DNA from: a virus
DNA length: 21,184 bases
IMG/VR virus record: IMGVR_UViG_3300046467_000845
Coordinates: 1 to 21,184 of that record
Strand: one strand, 5' to 3'
Shown: piece after piece, positions 10,349-21,184 of the stretch
How positions within the stretch are numbered: the stretch's first letter is position 1
How the letters are laid out: each line of letters opens with the position of its first letter
Notes under the pieces: generated by a model
Seen by the model: the letters and a program-made list of their open reading frames with translations, nothing else
The model's database searches: none
What the model was told of the DNA's origin: nothing
Translations under genes and position numbers: made by a program

Positions 10349-11083
10349 ATGGGAGTTATAACACATTCAAATAGATTACCAGATCCTAACTATTCAATAG
10401 AGGAAACAGGAAAGGGAGGATCAGGAACGGCTGGGCCTGGTTTTGCATCTGTAAAACTTGAATCAATACAACCAACCGCGGTAAGTACTACAAATAGTGG
10501 ACGAGTAACTTCTCGTTCTATTGTAGCACATAAATGGAAAATAGATATTAGCTATAACCCAATGACTCGAGACCAATTCGAGCCTATCTTTAATTTTCTT
10601 ATGGAAAAAAGAGGACGATTAAAACCTTTTGAAGTAGTACTACCTCAGTATGCTGCACCAAGAACAGCATTAAGTATTACTGGTGGACAGACATACTTAA
10701 AACCAGCAGCAAATATCACAGCAGGTGCACCTTATTTTTTAGCAACTAATCACGGAGATACTAGTTCACCTTATACTGGAGGTATGCGCCCTGGCGACAT
10801 GTTTACATTTAATGATACAGGTAACTCAAACCATAAAAAAGTATATAGAGTTACAAGTGTAACAGATAGAGATAATTATATAGCAGGTCTACAACCAGCT
10901 ACTGCTGAGAGGTACTACTATGTAACTCCTTCTATAGAAAAAGCAGTTACAGCTAGTAGCACTACATTAATTACTACAAACCCAACTTTTAGAGTTATAC
11001 AAAACGGAGATACCCGTTCGTATTCTCTTGGAACAAATAATTTATATGAATTTAGTCTAAGCCTAGTGGAGGCTCAACCGTAA
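10349..11083 (+). CDS. Distal tail / minor tail protein
   Basis: This 244-residue protein lies three bases after the tape measure stop and overlaps the gpJ-like gene by one base. An AGGGGG run about 7 bases upstream is its only ribosome-site candidate. The central HKWKIDISYNPMTRDQF segment followed by FLMEKRGRLKPFEVVLPQY resembles the N-terminal beta-barrel region of distal tail and lambda M-type minor tail proteins, where a 'W.i.i.y.pm....f..i..Fl...rG....F.v.lP' pattern recurs. A second half (about 110-200) with GMRPGDMFTFND and HKKVYRVTSV looks like an inserted beta-barrel (Gly-Asp-x-[FI] turn). The C-terminus returns to a tube-like strand (LYEFSLSLVEAQP). Such proteins form the ring between the tube end and the tip complex. 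The exact family is inferred from position and pattern. Confidence 0.65.
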   Translation: MGVITHSNRLPDPNYSIEETGKGGSGTAGPGFASVKLESIQPTAVSTTNSGRVTSRSIVAHKWKIDISYNPMTRDQFEPIFNFLMEKRGRLKPFEVVLPQYAAPRTALSITGGQTYLKPAANITAGAPYFLATNHGDTSSPYTGGMRPGDMFTFNDTGNSNHKKVYRVTSVTDRDNYIAGLQPATAERYYYVTPSIEKAVTASSTTLITTNPTFRVIQNGDTRSYSLGTNNLYEFSLSLVEAQP

Positions 11084-14000
11084 TGTCAACAGAAAAAGTT
11101 ATTAATAGTACCATTAGAACTAATCTTCTTAACAATGAAGATTTTCTTTATGCACATCTAGTAAAATTTGAGCGTCCATTTACAAAAGCTACTGATGGAA
11201 ATTATCCTACAGACGCAAGTAGATATGCCTATTATACTGATGGAAGTTATGATATATCATATGATGACGGTAGTGGTAATGGGGCTCAAGTTTATAGAGC
11301 AAATAGGGTACTAAGTATAGGAACTTACTCGGAAACTACACAAGCTCGTGCCAGCCAAATGAACTTAACTCTTGCGGGGGAAGATTTAAAATCTTCAATA
11401 TCTCTAGCTGGAAGTATATCCACCAGTGGAGTATTTACTCCAACTTCTACAGTATATGAAGGATACCCACTAGACTTTGTAGAAAGAGGTTTTAAAGAAG
11501 GAGACGAAATATCTTTTACGTATAGTAGTACTACTTTAACTTATAGAATATCTAGTTTTACTTCTAATAATACTATTTTAAACTTAGCAGTTATTGGTAC
11601 TACTCCAGATATTGTAAGTTCTTTCCCGGGCTCTACTCTGAGTCAAACATTTACTGTAAAACTTGAATCTGATGAATTAACAGCTCCTCTACAAGAAAGA
11701 GGAATAACTATATCAGGTACCTCAGCCGCTAGTCCTAACTTTATAAATAGAAGTGTAATGATTTACAAAGTATTTATAGACCAAGATACAGGTTTAGCTT
11801 GGGGTGGTACAGGTATTACTATATTTAAAGGAGTAATTCAAAATGTATCTATTGATGAAAGCCCTACAGGGGTAAAAGTTAAATGGGGTATTACAAGCCA
11901 TTGGGGAGATTGGAATCAAGTTGGGGGTAGATTAACTACTGATGAAATTCATAGAAATCTACAGCCTAATCAAATGCCTGCCCCAGTCCAGCCTATACGA
12001 AATGAATATGCAAGTGACTTAGGCTTTTTACATGCTGAAAGTTCTTTAAGTGCTATAGCAAATTATACTACTCAAGAAACTAGAACTAAGATGAAGAAAA
12101 AGAGAAGAGGAGGCCTTGCCGGACTCTTTGGAGGTAAATACTATATACAAGAAGAATACCAAATTGACATTCAAAATGAAGTTGATTTAAATATACATTT
12201 ACAAGGAAGATACCTTCCAGTAATTTATGGTGTACAAAGAGTAAATGGTAATCCAGTATTTGCAGACACACTAAATAGTGATAGTAAAGTAATCTTTACA
12301 GCAGATGCTATTTGTGAAGGAGAAATTCACGGATTATATAATATATATATAGATGATATTCCTTTAATATGTACTGATGATAATGACTATGATGTTAGAA
12401 GGGTAGGTGGAACAGACCAAGATAATACGCAACTTCAATGTTATGGTAGAATGTCTCATGGAGAGACTTTAATGGGGAAAGAAGGAGACCCAGTCGAAAC
12501 TAGTGGAGAACCTCCTATTGGTGTAGATACAAGAGATCATAATGAAAGATCCGTTCTTATCGCCTATGGACATGCTTTGCAAACGGGCGGTTATATACCT
12601 GGGGTAACACGTGACTGGTTCAAAGGAGTGGGCATGTCTGCAGGTACAAATGGAGTTTTACATAGAAAAAGTTGGAGCATTGATGGAGTACACAAAATAG
12701 ATTCCAGCTTTTTTAGTGGAAGAGCAAATCAACTAGCTTCTTCTATGCTATATAATCCTGCTCAACTTACAGATGGGATAGAAAGTATATCAGTTACTAA
12801 TCCAGGTACTGGTTATACTAGTAATCCAACTATAGCAATATCTGCTCCCTCAGGAGGAGGAGTAACAGCAACAGCTGAAGTACAAACTCGTGGGTATACT
12901 GAAGGCGGACTCCAAACAACAATTGGGGCAATAAGGCTATTAACTTCGGGTTCAGGATATACAGATTCAGATACAATTACAGTAACAATTACTCCAAATA
13001 CACAAGGTACTGGAGCACGAGCAACAGCAAATAGAGGTGGGTACAAAAGACAAGTAGATTATTATGAAGGAATAGAGCCTTACTGGAATTCAAATCATAG
13101 ACTATTAGATACTGCATATTCAGCAACCCGTTTTGAAATTAGTCCAGACGCCACAGAAATACCTGAAATAGAGTATGTTGTCAAAGGGTCACTACTTGAT
13201 TGTTATAATTATGATAATATTTATGTGCCCGATGAAGTTTTAAACCCAGCAAGTGCAGGAGATATTACAACTAGAGCAGCTACATTTAAAATAGGAGATG
13301 TGATAGCCGTTGAATATAGTACAGATGGGTCTAGTTGGACTAATGATACTTCGGGACTACATTCAAATGGTAAGTTTAAAATAATAGATAAGTATGAATT
13401 TCAAACCAATAGACAAACAACTCAATGGAAATTTGAATTAGATTCCGCTCCAGCTTTAGCAGTTACGAACGGAGCTCCTGGAAGAACTCATTTAAGATTA
13501 AAAAATTCAAGTAATCAGTACTGGTACATGTTAACATGGAACTATACTTTGTGTACTGATAAAACATTTCCTGATGAATGGAAGCTGCCTACTTGGACCC
13601 TAGTTGGGGATAAATTAACTGGTACATTTTCAACAGCAGATGCAGCACTTTTAGGTAGTACTAGTGACTATACTTCTTATCAATTCTATACGACTAATTG
13701 GACTGACATACCAAGCCTTAGTAAGGCATTATTAACAGGAACATGGGCTGGAAATGTAGTTACTATAGATGTTCCAATGCCTCTAGCAGATGCGACCGCA
13801 TCACTAGCTGCTATGAATGCACGATTAAAAATAAAAAATGGTAAAACATTTAAAGTTCCTTCAGGTGGCACAGGTACTACTAACTATGATGAAATTACTG
13901 GAATAACAAATTCAAAAGAATTATTTAATACTTATAGTGATACTGACATGAAAAGTAGTAATGCACGAACCTATGTTGGTCGTGGCGCTTTACTTCAAAA

Positions 14001-17000
14001 TACTACTACAGGAGAAGAAAGAGAAATTGAAGATTTTAATACTACTAGTGATACTATAACTTTATCAACTCCTTTCTATACTCCTCCAACTCCAGCTGAT
14101 AAGTTTACAATAACAGGTAGAGGGGCGGATAAACGAAGCTCTACTAATCCTGCAATACAAACACTTGATTATTTAAGTAATACTCGATATGGTAAAGGGT
14201 TAACAGGTACAGATTTAAATATTGATTCCTTTATTGCTTCAGCAAAATTATGTGATACTAGATCAAATGTAACACTTAAGCTAAAGACTGTTAGTGGTAT
14301 AGCAGCAGGAGATGTTTTTGAACTAAAAGTGGGAGGTTCCACAAATAGCGGAGATTTAGTAGCTCAGGGTACAGTAGGGACAGCTTCAGGTGATATTGAT
14401 GCTGTAAATACTACTATTACTCTTACTAACGTACTTGGTAAATTTACTAAAGCCTATAGTACTTATGGGCAGTATCTAGAAGGAGATATAATTTATACTG
14501 TTGCAGGACGCTATTATAGAGCTGGGTCCACAGTAACAAATACTAGTGCTGTAGAACCAGTTCATGAGACTGGTACTGTTGGGGGTATGACATATATTTG
14601 TAAGCATACTGATACTTCAACAGCCACCGACATTATTTTACACAAAACAGCAGGAAACGGTACTGCTAGTACTATAGCTTTAGAAAAACGATTTGGTAAG
14701 CCTGTTGAATATGGGTTATATGACTCTGATTGGGTAAGATATTGGAGATACTATGGTTGGGATCGTAACAATCAAGCAGAAGTAACTAGGCACCAAACTA
14801 ATTTTATACTTGATACTGGTAAGTCTCAATTCGCAAATATAAATGCTCTACTTTCACACTTTAATGGTATACTATCTTATGAAAATGGCAAATATGTATT
14901 AGACGTAGAAACACAAGAAGATGCTCCAACAATAAATCTTAATTCATCTCAAGAAAATATTAATCCGTATTATATAGAAAATTCAGATATAATAGGAAAA
15001 ATATCCTTGAAAGATGATTCACAAAAAAAAGGTAAAAACACTATCAAATCAAGTGTCGCTGATCCTCAAAATAATTGGGGTTCTAGAAGTATAACTTTCT
15101 TTAATTCTGATTTTTTAAAGGCAGACAGAGACATAGTAAAAACTGGAAACTTTCCTTTTACTGGTATAACTAATTATTGGAATGGAAGAATTGGAGTAGA
15201 AAAAGAATTATTCCAAAGTAGATTCTCAAAAGAAATAAGTTTTACTATAGGACCAAAAGGTTTATTATTAAAGGTAGGACAAGTTATAAGTATGAATTAT
15301 GATTCCTTTGGCTGGTCTAATAAATTGTTTAGAATCGAGAACTTAAATTTTAATGCAAATTGCAATGTTTCAGTAAAAGCTACAGAGTATGATGATAGCA
15401 TCTATGAAATCACAAAACAACAAGCACTCGGAGTTGAAACTCAATCTAGTGCACATTTTTCACTTCCAGTTGTAGAATCTCCTAGTAGTCTTGCTACAAC
15501 TACAAATAAAGCAGGATCAGTTATTATTACTTGGACTAATGGAACTGATTTTGTTGAAGGAACAGACTCCACACAGATATGGGCGTCTTCAACTAATGAT
15601 AGAAGCGCTTCCACCCTTATAGCTACAATAGATAATGCAGAAAGTTATGCATATACTACGGCTGTTGCTGATACTAAGTATTATTGGGTAAGACATAGAA
15701 GAAAATCAAAGAAAGGGCTTAAATCCTTCATAACTAGTTCAGGGTTTTTCCCTGTAAGTACAACTGGTGGAACAACAGGAACTGCACTAGCTATAAGTGC
15801 AGGAGCAGCAACAATCAGCTTAGTTCCTAGTAGCCATGTTATAGATTGGAATAAAACATCATCAGCCGAAACTTCTACTATAGCTTTTAGTACTACAACT
15901 TTCAATATGGAAGGAACTATATACTATGAATTTTTAGTTGGAGCAAACACTAGACAAAATTTGACAACATCAACATATACTTTAGGAGACTATGATGATG
16001 CTACTTGTGATACAACTAATACTAGTACTAATGTTACTGTAGATAGCACTACTAATTATAAAGTAGGAATGAAAGTTACAGGTGCAGGTATTCCTGCGTC
16101 AACACTTATAGCTGCTGTACCAAGTGCTACAAACTTTACATTAAGTAATGCAGCAACAGCAACTGCTACAAATATAACCTTAAATATTACAGACGAACCT
16201 GGAGCAGATGATGCTCCAATACAAGTAACAGTAAAAGCAAGACAAGGGAGTGCGGGAGCCTCAACAATACTTGCACAAGATGTTACTTCAATATTTGCTG
16301 TTCAAGACGGACAAAGTACTGTAACAGGAATATTGACAAATGAAGCACATACTATACCTGCTGCCACTGACGCAACTGTCAGTAGTTTTTCAGGATCAGG
16401 GGGCACTTTTCTCGTATACTACGGTAATACAGAAATTGCGGATATAACAGATTATCAAGCTTCAGATTTAGTATTTAGTGTACAGGCTACAACAGGAACA
16501 GTAACAGCAGCTATTAATGCAACTTCAGGAGTCTATTCTATATCAGCACTTGGCTCAGACACAGCTACAGTAACTTTTAGAGCAACAATTAAAGGTAGTA
16601 TGCTTGGTGGATTAGATACTACAAATGATGTAACACGAGACAAAGTATATACAATATCAAAAGCAAAAGTTGGAGCAACAGGAACAGGGGTAGCAGGATT
16701 AAACCAAAAAACAATAAGTTTATATTACCTTAACAATACTACTAGTACTGCGCCAACACGTCCAGATAATGATTTATTTTGGAATTTTGCAGAGAAAAAA
16801 TTAGTTCAATCAACTGGTACAACAACAACTTTAAGTGACGGACACGCATCCCTTGATAGTTGGACACAAGCTCTTCCTAGTACTACAAGTACTAATGGAG
16901 TAAGATGGGTTACAATGGCGGTGGCTTCTGCTAATACTGCTGAAGATACAATATCATCAGGAGATTGGGCAGCACCAGCTGTAGTTGGAGCTGATGGGTC

Positions 17001-20000
17001 TCAATATGCCAGAATAGACTTATACCAAAGAAATGCTAGCGCTACAGCTCCTGCCAAACCAACTACTAATCTTTTCTATAACTTTAGTCTAGGAGCTTTA
17101 GTAGCAGATATAACATCAACAACACCCCTAACAAACTCAAGTAGTGATCTAAATAGTTGGAAATTAGATATACCTCTAGCTAGTGCGGGAGGGTACTTAC
17201 ATACAACCAGTGCAGTCGCATTAGCAAATACAAGTGCTTCTCATGATACTATTGCTCCAGCAAATTGGGCGGATGTAACCATATTAACAACACAGGGAAC
17301 TGCAGGGACTGCTTCAATAAGTAATATAGTTACAGCTAATAACCCTTGGATTTTTAAAAGTTACGAATATGATCCTGATACTCGTACTGATACTGTTGTA
17401 TACTCCCCTACTACTATAACACTTACTGCAAATACCCAAAATACTACAAATGCTACAGGAGCATGGACTGCTTCAAATAGTGTTCCATTTGCAAGTGTAG
17501 ATCATACTATTGATTCTAATGGTATTGCAAGCTGTACAATAGCTGCTTCTGCTGTTGTTGATGGTATGACAGTTACATATACTTTACACTCAGATGATAA
17601 TAGTCTTGCAGATCATGTTACTATTAAACTTTTTGAAGGTGATGAAAGTAATGATGTTGCTGTACTCGAAAATGAAGTACATTTATTATTAGCCAATGAT
17701 GATGGTACTATAAAAAGTGGTGGGTACAGCGGTAGTGGTACTGAAATAAGACTATCCGAAGGTGGAAAAGAATTAGATTATTTACATACTGCTTCAGCAA
17801 CAGGAGACTTAAGCGCTGGAGAATGGTATATAACAAGCATTACAGCAACAACAGGAATTACAGTAGGAGCTAAAAGTTCAGAAGCTGGTGCAACTAGTAG
17901 TGCTTCTAGACACGCTCAAATAGCAGATCATAGTAGTGCTGCAACAGGAACAGATCTTTTTACAATAACGTATAATATTACATTAAAATCAAAATCTGGC
18001 ACAGTAAACACAGTTACTGGAAAGCAAAGAATAGGAAAATCAAAACAAGGAACAACAGGGACTACTGGAGCTTCTACAAACATAGTTTTTAAAAGAGCAG
18101 CTTCTGTAAGTACTCCAAGTAATTCTTCTGGTGTTCCTACTGGTTGGTCAGATGGTCCTCCAAGTGGAACAGATCTTTTATGGGCGTCTCAAGGAACAAA
18201 AGCATTAAACTCAGCAGATTTTGTGTGGACTACACCTTTTAAAATAGAAGCTGGAGCAGTTGCAGAAATATACATTTATAGAAAGAATAATTCTGGAGCT
18301 CCGAGTGGAGGAAGTTATAACTTTACAAATAATACTTTAGCTCTTCCCACTAATTGGGTCAAAGATCCTCCAGCTCTTACAGCAAATAATGATGAAGTAT
18401 ACGTAGCCCTAGGTTTATCTACTGGAGCTCCCACAGCAACCGCAGCTAGCGTTAGTTGGGGTACCCCTGTTTTATATGCTAGAAGAACAGACGGAACTGA
18501 TGGATCTCCTGGAGCTGCTGGGTTAAACAGCAGTACAGTATCTTTATACAATAAGAATACTAGTAGCTCTTCTGCACCTTCCGCCTTTAGTGGTACATTT
18601 ACTTATACCTTTGCAACAGGAGCAATAAGTAATGGTACACTCAATGGTTGGACCACTGCAGTCCCTGCTTTAGCTGCTGGAGAATACGCATGGGTTAGAC
18701 AAGCTACAGCTAGTAGCTCTGCTACTACAGATACTATTCCTACTTCAGAATTTTCAACAGCAGTTATGCATAGTGGAGTAGGGGAAGATGGACAGAGTAT
18801 AACAGGTGCTGCAGGTAACTCCAACGCACTAGTAGCTTTATATGCAGTTAATACAAGCAGTTCTAGCGCTCCTTCAGCTTTTAGTGGCACTTTTACTTAT
18901 ACTTATGCCACAGGGGCGGTTTCTGGGGGCACACTTAATGGTTGGCAAACTACAGTACCAACAGTAGCACAAGGGTCTTTTTTATGGGTTAGACAAGCTA
19001 CAGCTAGTTCTAATACTACTACTGACACTATTGCTACTTCAGAATTTTCAGCCGCAGTAGTAGCAAGTGCTTCTGGTGCTAATGGAGCTCCTGGAGCAGA
19101 TGGAGATGATGGAGCTGGTATTGAATATATATTTGCAGTAACCGCTGATTCAAGCACCTCTCCTAGTGCTCCCAATAATTCTTGGGGATTCGATCAACCT
19201 AGTAGCCCCTGGGCTGATGCAGCTCCAGCTGTAACAACATCTAATAAAGCTCTTTGGAGCACTCAAAGAGCTATAGTTGGAAGTCCTTCAGCAGGAGACG
19301 CTGTATCAGCTAGTTGGACCAGTGCTACAGTTGTAGGAAGGTTTGCAGATGATGGGTCTCCTGGAGCAGCTGGAGCAAATAGTGCTACCGTTACTTTGTA
19401 TAGAAAAAGCTCAAGTAATTCAAGTGCACCTACTGCTTTTAGTGGTACTTTTACATATACTTTTGCTACTGGAGCAGTCACAGGTGGAACACTTAATGGT
19501 TGGACTACAGCTCTACCAAGTATAACTAATGGTGAGTATATATGGCAAAGACAAGCAACAGCTAGTAGTACTGCTACTACAGATAGTATTCCTACCTCTG
19601 AATTTTCAGGAGCAGTTGTACATAGTGGAGTAGGAGCAAACGGAGAAAGTATAACAGGAGCAGCAGGTAACTCTAATGCTTTAGTAGCTTTATATGCAGT
19701 TAATACAAGTAATTCAAGTGCCCCCTCTGCTTTTAGTGGTACTTTTACATATACTTTTGCTACTGGAGCAGTCACAGGTGGAACACTTAATGGTTGGACA
19801 GCAAATTCTCCAAACATTCCAGATGGATCTTACTTATGGGCTAGACAAGCTACAGCTAGTTCTAATACTACTACTGACACTATTGCTACTTCAGAATTTT
19901 CAGCAGCAGTTGTAATAGGAGGAGTTGGAGAAGATGGAGATACAGGACCTAGTGGCACAGCAAACTTAGTAGGTAAAATGGAAGCTGTTCCCTCAACGGT

Positions 20001-20322
20001 GATATGGAGTTCAACGGATGCTGTTAACTGGTCTCCCACAGGTACTACACAAGACCAAACAATTACTTTCTATAATGGTCTTAAAAATGAGACTTGTGTA
20101 ATTAGATGGACTCTGTCTATTATTGCTTGGAGCACAGCAGATTTTATAACTTCCGTTGCAGAAATAACGGATTCAACTAGTAGCTTTAGCTTAGGAAGTA
20201 TTAGCCCTTCAAGTGCTACTAATAGAAAGTATGCAACAGTAGTAGTTACTCATGATGATGGTTTAACACTTACAGCTGATTGTTTACTATCAGTAACAGG
20301 TATTGCGGGAGCAGGAAAATAA
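11083..20322 (+). CDS. Giant gpJ-like tail hub and receptor-binding protein
   Basis: This 3079-residue protein starts at the ATG of a TAATG overlap, with GGAGG 10 bases upstream. Residues about 20-310 resemble a DUF2163-type minor tail domain fused at the front (YRANRVLSIGTYSE, RSVMIYKVFIDQDTG, ITSHWGDWNQVGGRLT). Residues about 375-540 carry a hub segment (YLPVIYGVQRVNGNPVF, ICEGEIHGLYNIYID). A Gly-rich insert with two GxGYT turns lies at about 565-650. Hub elements follow: EIPEIEYVVKG at about 700, STNPAIQTLDYLSNTRYGKG at about 1018, and the tail_3-like ISYENGKYVLDVE-type strand region with the following sheet at about 1240-1445. A fibronectin-III-like domain lies at about 1460-1563. Downstream come Ig-like pairs (about 1565-1868 and 2085-2330) and nine related beta-modules separated by short Gly-x-y linkers (GADG, GSPGAAG, GEDGDTGPSG). 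A different C-terminal domain ends the protein. Lambda J has 1132 residues, so the excess is mostly in the repeated outer region, which I infer contacts the host surface. Confidence 0.85.
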   Translation: MSTEKVINSTIRTNLLNNEDFLYAHLVKFERPFTKATDGNYPTDASRYAYYTDGSYDISYDDGSGNGAQVYRANRVLSIGTYSETTQARASQMNLTLAGEDLKSSISLAGSISTSGVFTPTSTVYEGYPLDFVERGFKEGDEISFTYSSTTLTYRISSFTSNNTILNLAVIGTTPDIVSSFPGSTLSQTFTVKLESDELTAPLQERGITISGTSAASPNFINRSVMIYKVFIDQDTGLAWGGTGITIFKGVIQNVSIDESPTGVKVKWGITSHWGDWNQVGGRLTTDEIHRNLQPNQMPAPVQPIRNEYASDLGFLHAESSLSAIANYTTQETRTKMKKKRRGGLAGLFGGKYYIQEEYQIDIQNEVDLNIHLQGRYLPVIYGVQRVNGNPVFADTLNSDSKVIFTADAICEGEIHGLYNIYIDDIPLICTDDNDYDVRRVGGTDQDNTQLQCYGRMSHGETLMGKEGDPVETSGEPPIGVDTRDHNERSVLIAYGHALQTGGYIPGVTRDWFKGVGMSAGTNGVLHRKSWSIDGVHKIDSSFFSGRANQLASSMLYNPAQLTDGIESISVTNPGTGYTSNPTIAISAPSGGGVTATAEVQTRGYTEGGLQTTIGAIRLLTSGSGYTDSDTITVTITPNTQGTGARATANRGGYKRQVDYYEGIEPYWNSNHRLLDTAYSATRFEISPDATEIPEIEYVVKGSLLDCYNYDNIYVPDEVLNPASAGDITTRAATFKIGDVIAVEYSTDGSSWTNDTSGLHSNGKFKIIDKYEFQTNRQTTQWKFELDSAPALAVTNGAPGRTHLRLKNSSNQYWYMLTWNYTLCTDKTFPDEWKLPTWTLVGDKLTGTFSTADAALLGSTSDYTSYQFYTTNWTDIPSLSKALLTGTWAGNVVTIDVPMPLADATASLAAMNARLKIKNGKTFKVPSGGTGTTNYDEITGITNSKELFNTYSDTDMKSSNARTYVGRGALLQNTTTGEEREIEDFNTTSDTITLSTPFYTPPTPADKFTITGRGADKRSSTNPAIQTLDYLSNTRYGKGLTGTDLNIDSFIASAKLCDTRSNVTLKLKTVSGIAAGDVFELKVGGSTNSGDLVAQGTVGTASGDIDAVNTTITLTNVLGKFTKAYSTYGQYLEGDIIYTVAGRYYRAGSTVTNTSAVEPVHETGTVGGMTYICKHTDTSTATDIILHKTAGNGTASTIALEKRFGKPVEYGLYDSDWVRYWRYYGWDRNNQAEVTRHQTNFILDTGKSQFANINALLSHFNGILSYENGKYVLDVETQEDAPTINLNSSQENINPYYIENSDIIGKISLKDDSQKKGKNTIKSSVADPQNNWGSRSITFFNSDFLKADRDIVKTGNFPFTGITNYWNGRIGVEKELFQSRFSKEISFTIGPKGLLLKVGQVISMNYDSFGWSNKLFRIENLNFNANCNVSVKATEYDDSIYEITKQQALGVETQSSAHFSLPVVESPSSLATTTNKAGSVIITWTNGTDFVEGTDSTQIWASSTNDRSASTLIATIDNAESYAYTTAVADTKYYWVRHRRKSKKGLKSFITSSGFFPVSTTGGTTGTALAISAGAATISLVPSSHVIDWNKTSSAETSTIAFSTTTFNMEGTIYYEFLVGANTRQNLTTSTYTLGDYDDATCDTTNTSTNVTVDSTTNYKVGMKVTGAGIPASTLIAAVPSATNFTLSNAATATATNITLNITDEPGADDAPIQVTVKARQGSAGASTILAQDVTSIFAVQDGQSTVTGILTNEAHTIPAATDATVSSFSGSGGTFLVYYGNTEIADITDYQASDLVFSVQATTGTVTAAINATSGVYSISALGSDTATVTFRATIKGSMLGGLDTTNDVTRDKVYTISKAKVGATGTGVAGLNQKTISLYYLNNTTSTAPTRPDNDLFWNFAEKKLVQSTGTTTTLSDGHASLDSWTQALPSTTSTNGVRWVTMAVASANTAEDTISSGDWAAPAVVGADGSQYARIDLYQRNASATAPAKPTTNLFYNFSLGALVADITSTTPLTNSSSDLNSWKLDIPLASAGGYLHTTSAVALANTSASHDTIAPANWADVTILTTQGTAGTASISNIVTANNPWIFKSYEYDPDTRTDTVVYSPTTITLTANTQNTTNATGAWTASNSVPFASVDHTIDSNGIASCTIAASAVVDGMTVTYTLHSDDNSLADHVTIKLFEGDESNDVAVLENEVHLLLANDDGTIKSGGYSGSGTEIRLSEGGKELDYLHTASATGDLSAGEWYITSITATTGITVGAKSSEAGATSSASRHAQIADHSSAATGTDLFTITYNITLKSKSGTVNTVTGKQRIGKSKQGTTGTTGASTNIVFKRAASVSTPSNSSGVPTGWSDGPPSGTDLLWASQGTKALNSADFVWTTPFKIEAGAVAEIYIYRKNNSGAPSGGSYNFTNNTLALPTNWVKDPPALTANNDEVYVALGLSTGAPTATAASVSWGTPVLYARRTDGTDGSPGAAGLNSSTVSLYNKNTSSSSAPSAFSGTFTYTFATGAISNGTLNGWTTAVPALAAGEYAWVRQATASSSATTDTIPTSEFSTAVMHSGVGEDGQSITGAAGNSNALVALYAVNTSSSSAPSAFSGTFTYTYATGAVSGGTLNGWQTTVPTVAQGSFLWVRQATASSNTTTDTIATSEFSAAVVASASGANGAPGADGDDGAGIEYIFAVTADSSTSPSAPNNSWGFDQPSSPWADAAPAVTTSNKALWSTQRAIVGSPSAGDAVSASWTSATVVGRFADDGSPGAAGANSATVTLYRKSSSNSSAPTAFSGTFTYTFATGAVTGGTLNGWTTALPSITNGEYIWQRQATASSTATTDSIPTSEFSGAVVHSGVGANGESITGAAGNSNALVALYAVNTSNSSAPSAFSGTFTYTFATGAVTGGTLNGWTANSPNIPDGSYLWARQATASSNTTTDTIATSEFSAAVVIGGVGEDGDTGPSGTANLVGKMEAVPSTVIWSSTDAVNWSPTGTTQDQTITFYNGLKNETCVIRWTLSIIAWSTADFITSVAEITDSTSSFSLGSISPSSATNRKYATVVVTHDDGLTLTADCLLSVTGIAGAGK
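12775..13032 (+). other. Gly-rich insert with two GxGYT turns in the tail hub
   Basis: Residues about 565-650 of the gpJ-like protein show two half-repeats. The first is SVTNPGTGYTSNPTIAIS followed by GGGVTATAEV. The second is RLLTSGSGYTDSDTITVTI followed by GTGARATANRG. The 'v.v.n.GsGYt..pti.i' pattern is a small module found in many aquatic phage structural proteins. A more diverged relative is in the insert of the tail tube protein (GGSNYVVGDRLEF). It interrupts the hub region and is probably surface-exposed. Confidence 0.55.
15997..16187 (+). other. Small beta-module nested in an Ig-like domain
   Basis: Residues about 1640-1702 of the gpJ-like protein read as a self-contained module (TNVTVDSTTNYKVGMKVTGA, then IPASTLIAAV, then NFTLSNAATATATNITL). 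It sits between YTLGDYDD and a DDAPIQVTVKAR strand that belong to one Ig-like domain. The 'VGM.VtG.GIPa.t.i....s...f.LS.aaT.t' pattern recurs in phage and bacterial surface proteins. The second Ig pair (from about 17335) appears to lack it, which suggests insertion after the pair duplicated. Confidence 0.5.
18526..18819 (+). repeat. 98-residue tail-tip repeat, copy 1
   Basis: This is the first of four close copies of a 294-bp in-frame unit in the gpJ-like gene. The core pattern is LY..NTSSSSAPSAFSGTF, TFATGA, a LNGW turn, W.RQATASS, TTDTI.TSEFS and a closing Gly-rich linker. It is paired with copy 3, 852 bp downstream. Confidence 0.8.
18820..19113 (+). repeat. 98-residue tail-tip repeat, copy 2
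   Basis: This copy follows copy 1 directly and in phase. It starts with SNALVALYAVNTSS. Its second half shares 63 identical bases (18990-19052) with copy 4 (19842-19904). Its linker is collagen-like (GANGAPGADGDDGAG) and differs from that of copy 4. Confidence 0.8.
19378..19671 (+). repeat. 98-residue tail-tip repeat, copy 3
   Basis: This copy lies exactly 852 bp after copy 1, with no net insertion or deletion between the two, and both are preceded by the same DGSPGAAG linker. Bases 19433-19505 are identical to 19727-19799 in copy 4. Confidence 0.8.
19672..19965 (+). repeat. 98-residue tail-tip repeat, copy 4
   Basis: This copy lies 852 bp after copy 2 and 294 bp after copy 3. Its front half matches copy 3 at the DNA level and its back half matches copy 2, so it looks like a patchwork. 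It ends in GEDGDTGPSG, after which the unrelated C-terminal domain begins. Confidence 0.8.
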
Positions 20323-20915
20323 TGACAACAATTACATCAAGCAACGGGTACAGCTTAAGACCCTTAATAGAAGCAGATTATAGTTTTGTAATGGAAGTAT
20401 TAAAAGATTTTCCTATAGGCTCGAATAGCTATGCACAAAGAGTTAATGAGTTTTCTACTATGCTTTACGTAACTGAGGGTTTTACAGTTGCAAAAGTAAA
20501 AGCACAAACTCCAACAGCCGTTACTATGATTACAGTAAAAGATAGTGTAGCGCGAGCATTATGTTACCTAGATTTTGCTAGTTTAGTGGCTGAACAAAGA
20601 ATAGCAGCAGTTCACCCTGATCATAGAGGTGGCAAACATTTTACAGCACAACAGATGCTAGCAGCTTATCTTGCTTATACTGAATGTGACTGTACTTCTT
20701 CTATGCAAGAAGCAATAAGTTCAGGAGGAATAAATACAGTCGCTAATAAATGGAGATCTACAATGAGTACGGCTGAAACAGAACGAGAAACAATAGATAA
20801 ATCAGGTGATGGAACAACTTACACCTTAAAAAAGATTATACAAACAGCAGCAGAACACGAAACCTATAGAGCAGCACACTCAACGTGGGGCTCAGTAACA
20901 TATACTGTTTCTTAA
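20322..20915 (+). CDS. GNAT-like acyltransferase or structural relative
   Basis: I chose the ATG at 20322 (197 residues) because it overlaps the gpJ-like stop (TAATG) and has AGGA 5 bases upstream; an upstream TTG in the same frame would run through the end of gpJ and has no such support. The N-terminus (YSLRPLIEADYSFVMEVLKD) matches the first strand and helix of GNAT acetyltransferases. Residues 94-112 (IAAVHPDHRGGKHFTAQQML) resemble the acetyl-CoA-binding motif A, where strand 4 ends in 'vhPdhRg' and a helix follows. The canonical R-x-x-G-x-G/A loop is degenerate: the two later Gly positions appear as K105 and F107. A helical segment and 'NKW' follow at about 113-144, where motif B would lie. 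It could modify a virion or host component, or be a catalytically weak relative used structurally. Its place after the tail-tip gene suggests a link to the tip. The substrate is unknown. Confidence 0.55.
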   Translation: MTTITSSNGYSLRPLIEADYSFVMEVLKDFPIGSNSYAQRVNEFSTMLYVTEGFTVAKVKAQTPTAVTMITVKDSVARALCYLDFASLVAEQRIAAVHPDHRGGKHFTAQQMLAAYLAYTECDCTSSMQEAISSGGINTVANKWRSTMSTAETERETIDKSGDGTTYTLKKIIQTAAEHETYRAAHSTWGSVTYTVS

Positions 20916-20966
20916 TAAGTATAACACAATAATTCGGGTCTAACACACCCCTTAGAAAAATATTTC

Positions 20967-20995
20967 TTGACATATACCTTAAATTTTGGTATAAT
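20967..20995 (+). promoter_or_regulatory. Perfect-consensus sigma70-type promoter
   Basis: TTGACA (20967-20972) and TATAAT (20990-20995) are separated by exactly 17 bp, the ideal spacing, and lie in the 105-base gap between the GNAT-like gene and the next gene. Transcription would start near 21002, leaving a leader of about 20 bases that holds little more than the ribosome site. This should be recognised by host housekeeping RNA polymerase without a phage factor. Confidence 0.85.
20973..20993. promoter_or_regulatory. Inverted repeat between the promoter boxes, possible operator
   Basis: TATACC at 20973-20978 and GGTATA at 20988-20993 are perfect 6-bp inverted arms around a 9-base AT-only centre. 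The element fills the spacer and overlaps the first four bases of the -10 box. That position suits a dimeric repressor, but no regulator gene is visible in the window. Confidence 0.4.
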
Positions 20996-21004
20996 TATAC
21001 AAAT

Positions 21005-21009
21005 GGAGG
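21005..21009 (+). promoter_or_regulatory. Strong ribosome binding site of the last gene
   Basis: GGAGG lies 11 bases before the ATG at 21021, with an A-rich spacer. The complementarity is strong and the spacing somewhat long. With the promoter just upstream it indicates high expression of the following gene. Confidence 0.7.
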
Positions 21010-21020
21010 AAAAAAATTAA

Positions 21021-21184
21021 ATGAGCGCAGGAACTTACAATTTCATATTAGAGCAAGGAGCCACCTTTAACCGTATTCTAACCCTAAAAGAAAACTCTGG
21101 GGTTATGAATCTAACAGGCTATTCGGTTGCGTCCAAGATGCGATCCACACACGACTCAGGTACCGTGGTGGGCACGTTTACGTG
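21021..21184 (+). CDS. Start of a putative virion structural protein (3' partial)
   Basis: The first 54 codons are open to the end of the window. The N-terminus SAGTYNFILEQGATFNRILT followed by NLTGYSVASKMR matches a recurrent phage pattern, 'y.f.ieqGatf.r.lt.kd..g...nLtGy.a..qiR', which I associate with short beta-sandwich baseplate or tail-accessory proteins (BppU N-terminal-like). It has its own promoter and ribosome site, so it begins a separate transcription unit. Its codon use is clearly less AT-rich than the genes before it (about 33 of the 60 bases at 21121-21180 are G or C). The function is inferred from pattern only. Confidence 0.65.
   Translation, partial: MSAGTYNFILEQGATFNRILTLKENSGVMNLTGYSVASKMRSTHDSGTVVGTFT

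Follow-up and report, generated by a model that had tools for sequence, protein, structure and literature searches.

In bacteriophage T5 (Demerecviridae), each of the three temporal classes relies on sigma-70, late genes have strong promoters in front of them, and the discriminator is the main difference between early and late promoters (PMC7472727). The T5 record annotates promoters P-J5 and P-G25 in the late region, and the annotation of D5 describes it as required for late transcription. The stretch of DNA analyzed here (the window) is a complete virus record of 21,184 bp. It carries a T5-like tail module composed of a tail terminator, a major tail protein, a p140-like tube protein, an assembly chaperone, and a pb9-like distal tail protein. 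The nearest cultured relatives of the major tail protein are T5-like phages, at about 35% identity, and T5 pb3 has a match in the equivalent region of the window's relatives. The source phage is an uncultured marine relative of T5.

TTGACA-17-TATAAT at 20967 to 20995 is the sole 12/12 match in the window and also the sole match with fewer than two mismatches. Judged by its boxes and its 17-bp spacer, the site is a sigma-70 promoter. The sequence-only reading had described it as a consensus promoter of near-maximal housekeeping type that opens a new unit and is followed by a strong ribosome site; match, spacing, and coordinates proved exact, and GGAGG precedes the ATG at 21021. The features of the locus are as follows, with A, B, and C denoting the serial late promoters of relatives that are described below.

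11083 to 20322, + strand: 3079-aa tail hub/fibre protein, corresponding to T5 pb3 in position and through the match seen in relatives
20337 to 20915, + strand: 192-aa ORF upstream of the promoter, final gene of the preceding tail unit
20947 to 20966, + strand: A/T-rich, UP-element-like upstream element, consensus GAAAAATA-n-TTC right before the -35 box
20967 to 20972, + strand: -35 box TTGACA, exact match to consensus
20973 to 20978, + strand: left arm TATACC, exact only in the window and L002, L003, and L031, absent from other clades
20987 to 20995, + strand: extended -10 box TGGTATAAT, with TATAAT at 20990 to 20995 and TG before the -10; includes the right arm
20988 to 20993, + strand: right arm GGTATA, inside the extended -10 box
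20996 to 21001, + strand: discriminator TATACA, late type (T immediately after TATAAT) by class comparison with B, C, and early promoters
21002, + strand: predicted transcription start, placed 7 nt after the -10 box by spacing alone
21005 to 21009, + strand: Shine-Dalgarno sequence GGAGG before the ATG at 21021; GGAG is retained in orthologues
21021 to 21184, + strand: beginning of the driven ORF, truncated where the contig stops

The driven ORF belongs to phrog_1084, is 111 aa long in most relatives, and is similar to phrog_3304, "L-shaped tail fiber protein assembly." Searches of IMG/VR, phage records, PHROGs, and Pfam gave no significant relative for the 192-aa ORF, which separates the promoter from the giant tail protein. 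No terminator near the promoter appeared in the program listing. A candidate hairpin upstream, GGGT-N7-ACCC, was rejected as a terminator, as it folds no better than shuffled sequences and is not followed by a T run.

Conservation was assessed in IMG/VR at loci that specify the downstream protein with at least 58% identity; 29 of these were readable. The promoter was kept in all 29, with 28 at 12/12 and one at 11/12, which exceeds chance. The -35 box reads TTGACA in 28 loci and TTGACT in one, and the spacer is 17 or 18 bp; GGAG and a start codon follow. No such promoter was present before more distant relatives of the downstream protein (44% identity or less) in other phages. The A/T-rich upstream element is common to the orthologous promoters and to both early and late promoters of relatives. 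The site is a real strong promoter, firmly retained ahead of a tail-fibre gene.

The window, being a fragment, does not include promoters A and B; the layout of the late region given here is that of relatives. In their late regions, promoter A is followed by B about 5 kb on and by C, the class of the window's promoter, more than 20 kb further. The A-to-B unit includes the terminase gene. Behind B lie an HNH-like gene, the portal gene, the head protease/major head protein, the head-tail adaptor, and tail genes. The HNH-like gene (L305 to L384) has at least 544 confirmed relatives in IMG/VR and, given how common it is, the T5-like group seems to be abundant. A 91-kb relative, G011, contains 14 exact TTGACA-17-TATAAT sites; the reversed pattern, used as a control, gave one match even when one mismatch was allowed. 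The same relative encodes a D5 homologue (48% identity over 221 aa), whereas the window fragment does not include the early region. No counterpart of T5.026, the RNA-polymerase-binding protein, turned up in the relatives searched.

Early and late promoters of this lineage differ around the -10 box. The window's promoter and the terminase and portal/head promoters of relatives share TATAATT and a leader with a Shine-Dalgarno sequence. Early-region promoters read TATAATA, often with an ATG 6 to 9 nt downstream. The base after TATAAT is T in 18/20 distinct C promoters and 35/38 distinct B promoters, and A in all 20 distinct orthologous early promoters; two C-like promoters with A (L169 and L198) are counterexamples to the late T. 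GG before TATAAT was found in 19/20 distinct C and 27/38 distinct B promoters. From these signatures we predict that many early mRNAs of the relatives are leaderless and late ones leadered.

Several further observations concern sequences close to the -10 box. In G011 (L204, L205, and L208), an ATG lies 6 to 9 nt after TATAAT for eight ORFs of at least 49 codons. For one early gene (L387 to L422), the distance is 6 to 7 nt in 19/20 distinct orthologous promoters. In several relatives, another early gene, whose product starts M-I-x-Y-N-W (L205:8931-9360), has its ATG only 1 to 4 nt past TATAAT, which is too near for the usual start site. In other phages (L033, L035, L037, L039, L042, L043, and L046), a gene beginning MKLSKETV, which we take to be T4 gp45-like, shows a longer dyad around the -10 box, for example, TATACCCC-N5-GGGGTATAAT.

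By comparison with relatives and with T5, the site is quite probably a T5-type sigma-70 late promoter, the third of three serial ones, that serves the tail-fibre module on the late schedule. We infer its start site, strength, timing, and mechanism as follows. Host RNA polymerase would bind the consensus -35 box, the extended -10 box, and the A/T-rich upstream element and start near position 21002. The short leader with GGAGG would then allow the tail-fibre-assembly gene, and the fibre genes beyond it, to be translated efficiently. Lying more than 20 kb below B, the promoter would make fibre transcripts independent of read-through along a long operon. As in T5, phage factors that act on the host polymerase and the start region would impose late timing, with no repressor at the dyad.

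The sequence-only reading had proposed a schedule different from that of the tail operon, either early or lysogenic. This found no support, since the same promoter class precedes the terminase and portal/head units of relatives, the sequence after the -10 box is of late type, and neither integrase PF00589 nor an HTH_3 repressor, the sole repressor type sought, gave a match in the eight related contigs examined, which are mostly partial. Lysogeny was rejected on the latter ground, and a separate schedule is unsupported because the promoter resembles those of its late neighbours. The schedule is most likely shared with the neighbouring late units, as far as sequence and analogy allow. It could be argued that a 12/12 promoter in principle needs no activator, so that an unregulated site of this kind would give early or constitutive expression whatever the stage of infection. 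We regard this as unlikely, given that the start region and leader are of late type, that the same class stands ahead of units containing terminase and portal/head genes, and that in T5 the late promoters, though also strong and of sigma-70 type, fire late (PMC7472727).

A repressor was the other regulator considered. The repeat TATACC-N9-GGTATA does lie in the spacer and overlap the -10 box, with its arms at 20973 to 20978 and 20988 to 20993 as originally described, and this real dyad is what speaks for a dimeric regulator that silences the unit or gives it a schedule of its own. Its use as an operator fared less well. While every orthologue retains the boxes, the exact repeat occurs in only 4/20 distinct orthologous promoters (the window's and those of three other loci), so that, among related phages, the boxes were kept and the repeat largely was not. 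Within the window's clade, the outer arm bases vary freely, the left hexamer also reading GATACC, ACTACC, CTTACC, or CATACC. In other clades GGT stands in direct orientation, mostly with an 18-bp spacer. The shifting position and both orientations of this GGT/ACC element argue against a fixed dyad. The extended -10 box that holds the right arm is also found in promoters without the left arm. A search for further copies of TATACC-N9-GGTATA recovered a single occurrence in the window's own record and none at other promoters of relatives. Across IMG/VR, TTGACATATACC-N9-GGTATAAT occurred in 19 contigs, several of them from unrelated phages, and the pattern alone is therefore no marker of the window's T5-like family. 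Repeats with arms of at least 6 bp arose in 12.1% of simulated promoters and in 14/94 real promoters of the same shape. The repeat is present but does not appear to be clearly beyond chance, most of its right arm being fixed by the extended -10 box. Together with the lack of an integrase or HTH_3 match in the eight mostly partial contigs, this makes control by a repressor very improbable. The mirror-image sequence seems to be a promoter by-product and not a repressor switch, which leaves the site fairly ordinary.

One observation stays outside the by-product account of the dyad, namely, a constraint on the -35-proximal half of the spacer. In ten orthologues of the window's clade with 17-bp spacers, TACCTTA (spacer positions 3 to 9) is invariant although spacer positions 1 to 2 and 10 to 11 vary and 10/12 four-fold sites in the downstream gene differ among sequences. 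This invariance could be counted in favor of a repressor; it also suits a late-class element (TACCTTA here, AAGGT in B, and GGT in other C promoters) that would be recognized by a modified polymerase or a phage factor, for example, the D5 homologue, the dyad being a by-product of the orientation in this clade. GGT or ACC was present in the left spacer of 16/16 distinct C and 20/24 distinct B promoters, where shuffling expects about 2 and 6, although these counts come from related, nonindependent sequences and overstate the evidence. Orthologous early promoters were at background (5/18 versus 4.2 expected). The orientation and exact position of the element shift, however, and A promoters mostly do not carry it. 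We consider such an element rather doubtful; it is compatible with a T5-type late promoter and adds one step to it. A broader proposal, put forward tentatively and judged hardly less doubtful, is that temporal class in this lineage is written around the -10 box: early promoters would combine TATAATA with an ATG 6 to 9 nt on and give leaderless mRNAs, and late B and C promoters would combine TATAATT, a Shine-Dalgarno leader, and a spacer GGT/ACC read by a late factor (the D5 homologue or a modified polymerase).

These findings indicate that an uncultured marine phage group retains the way in which T5 drives its late genes, from host promoters that are nearly perfect. The dozens of orthologous promoters represent a clean comparative set in which the question raised by T5, how late sigma-70 promoters are distinguished from early ones, can be approached through sequence.

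Compared with repressor-controlled phage promoters whose operator covers the -10 box, the locus is alike in having a dyad that overlaps this box. It differs in that the dyad is neither conserved nor recurrent and in the integrase and HTH_3 results for the eight contigs. Compared with T5, the boxes are nearer to consensus, the late discriminator begins with T, and many early mRNAs of the window's relatives look leaderless. The T5 promoters lie within T5.146 and between pb2 and T5.139, with none annotated directly before the fibre module. P-G25, in the T5 late region, has ATATT after its -10 box, which means that T5 and the window's group do not follow exactly one discriminator rule. Common to both are strong host-type promoters placed serially within the late structural region, with a 17-bp spacer and an A/T-rich upstream stretch, and homologous major tail protein, p140, pb9, pb3, and D5 in the window's family.
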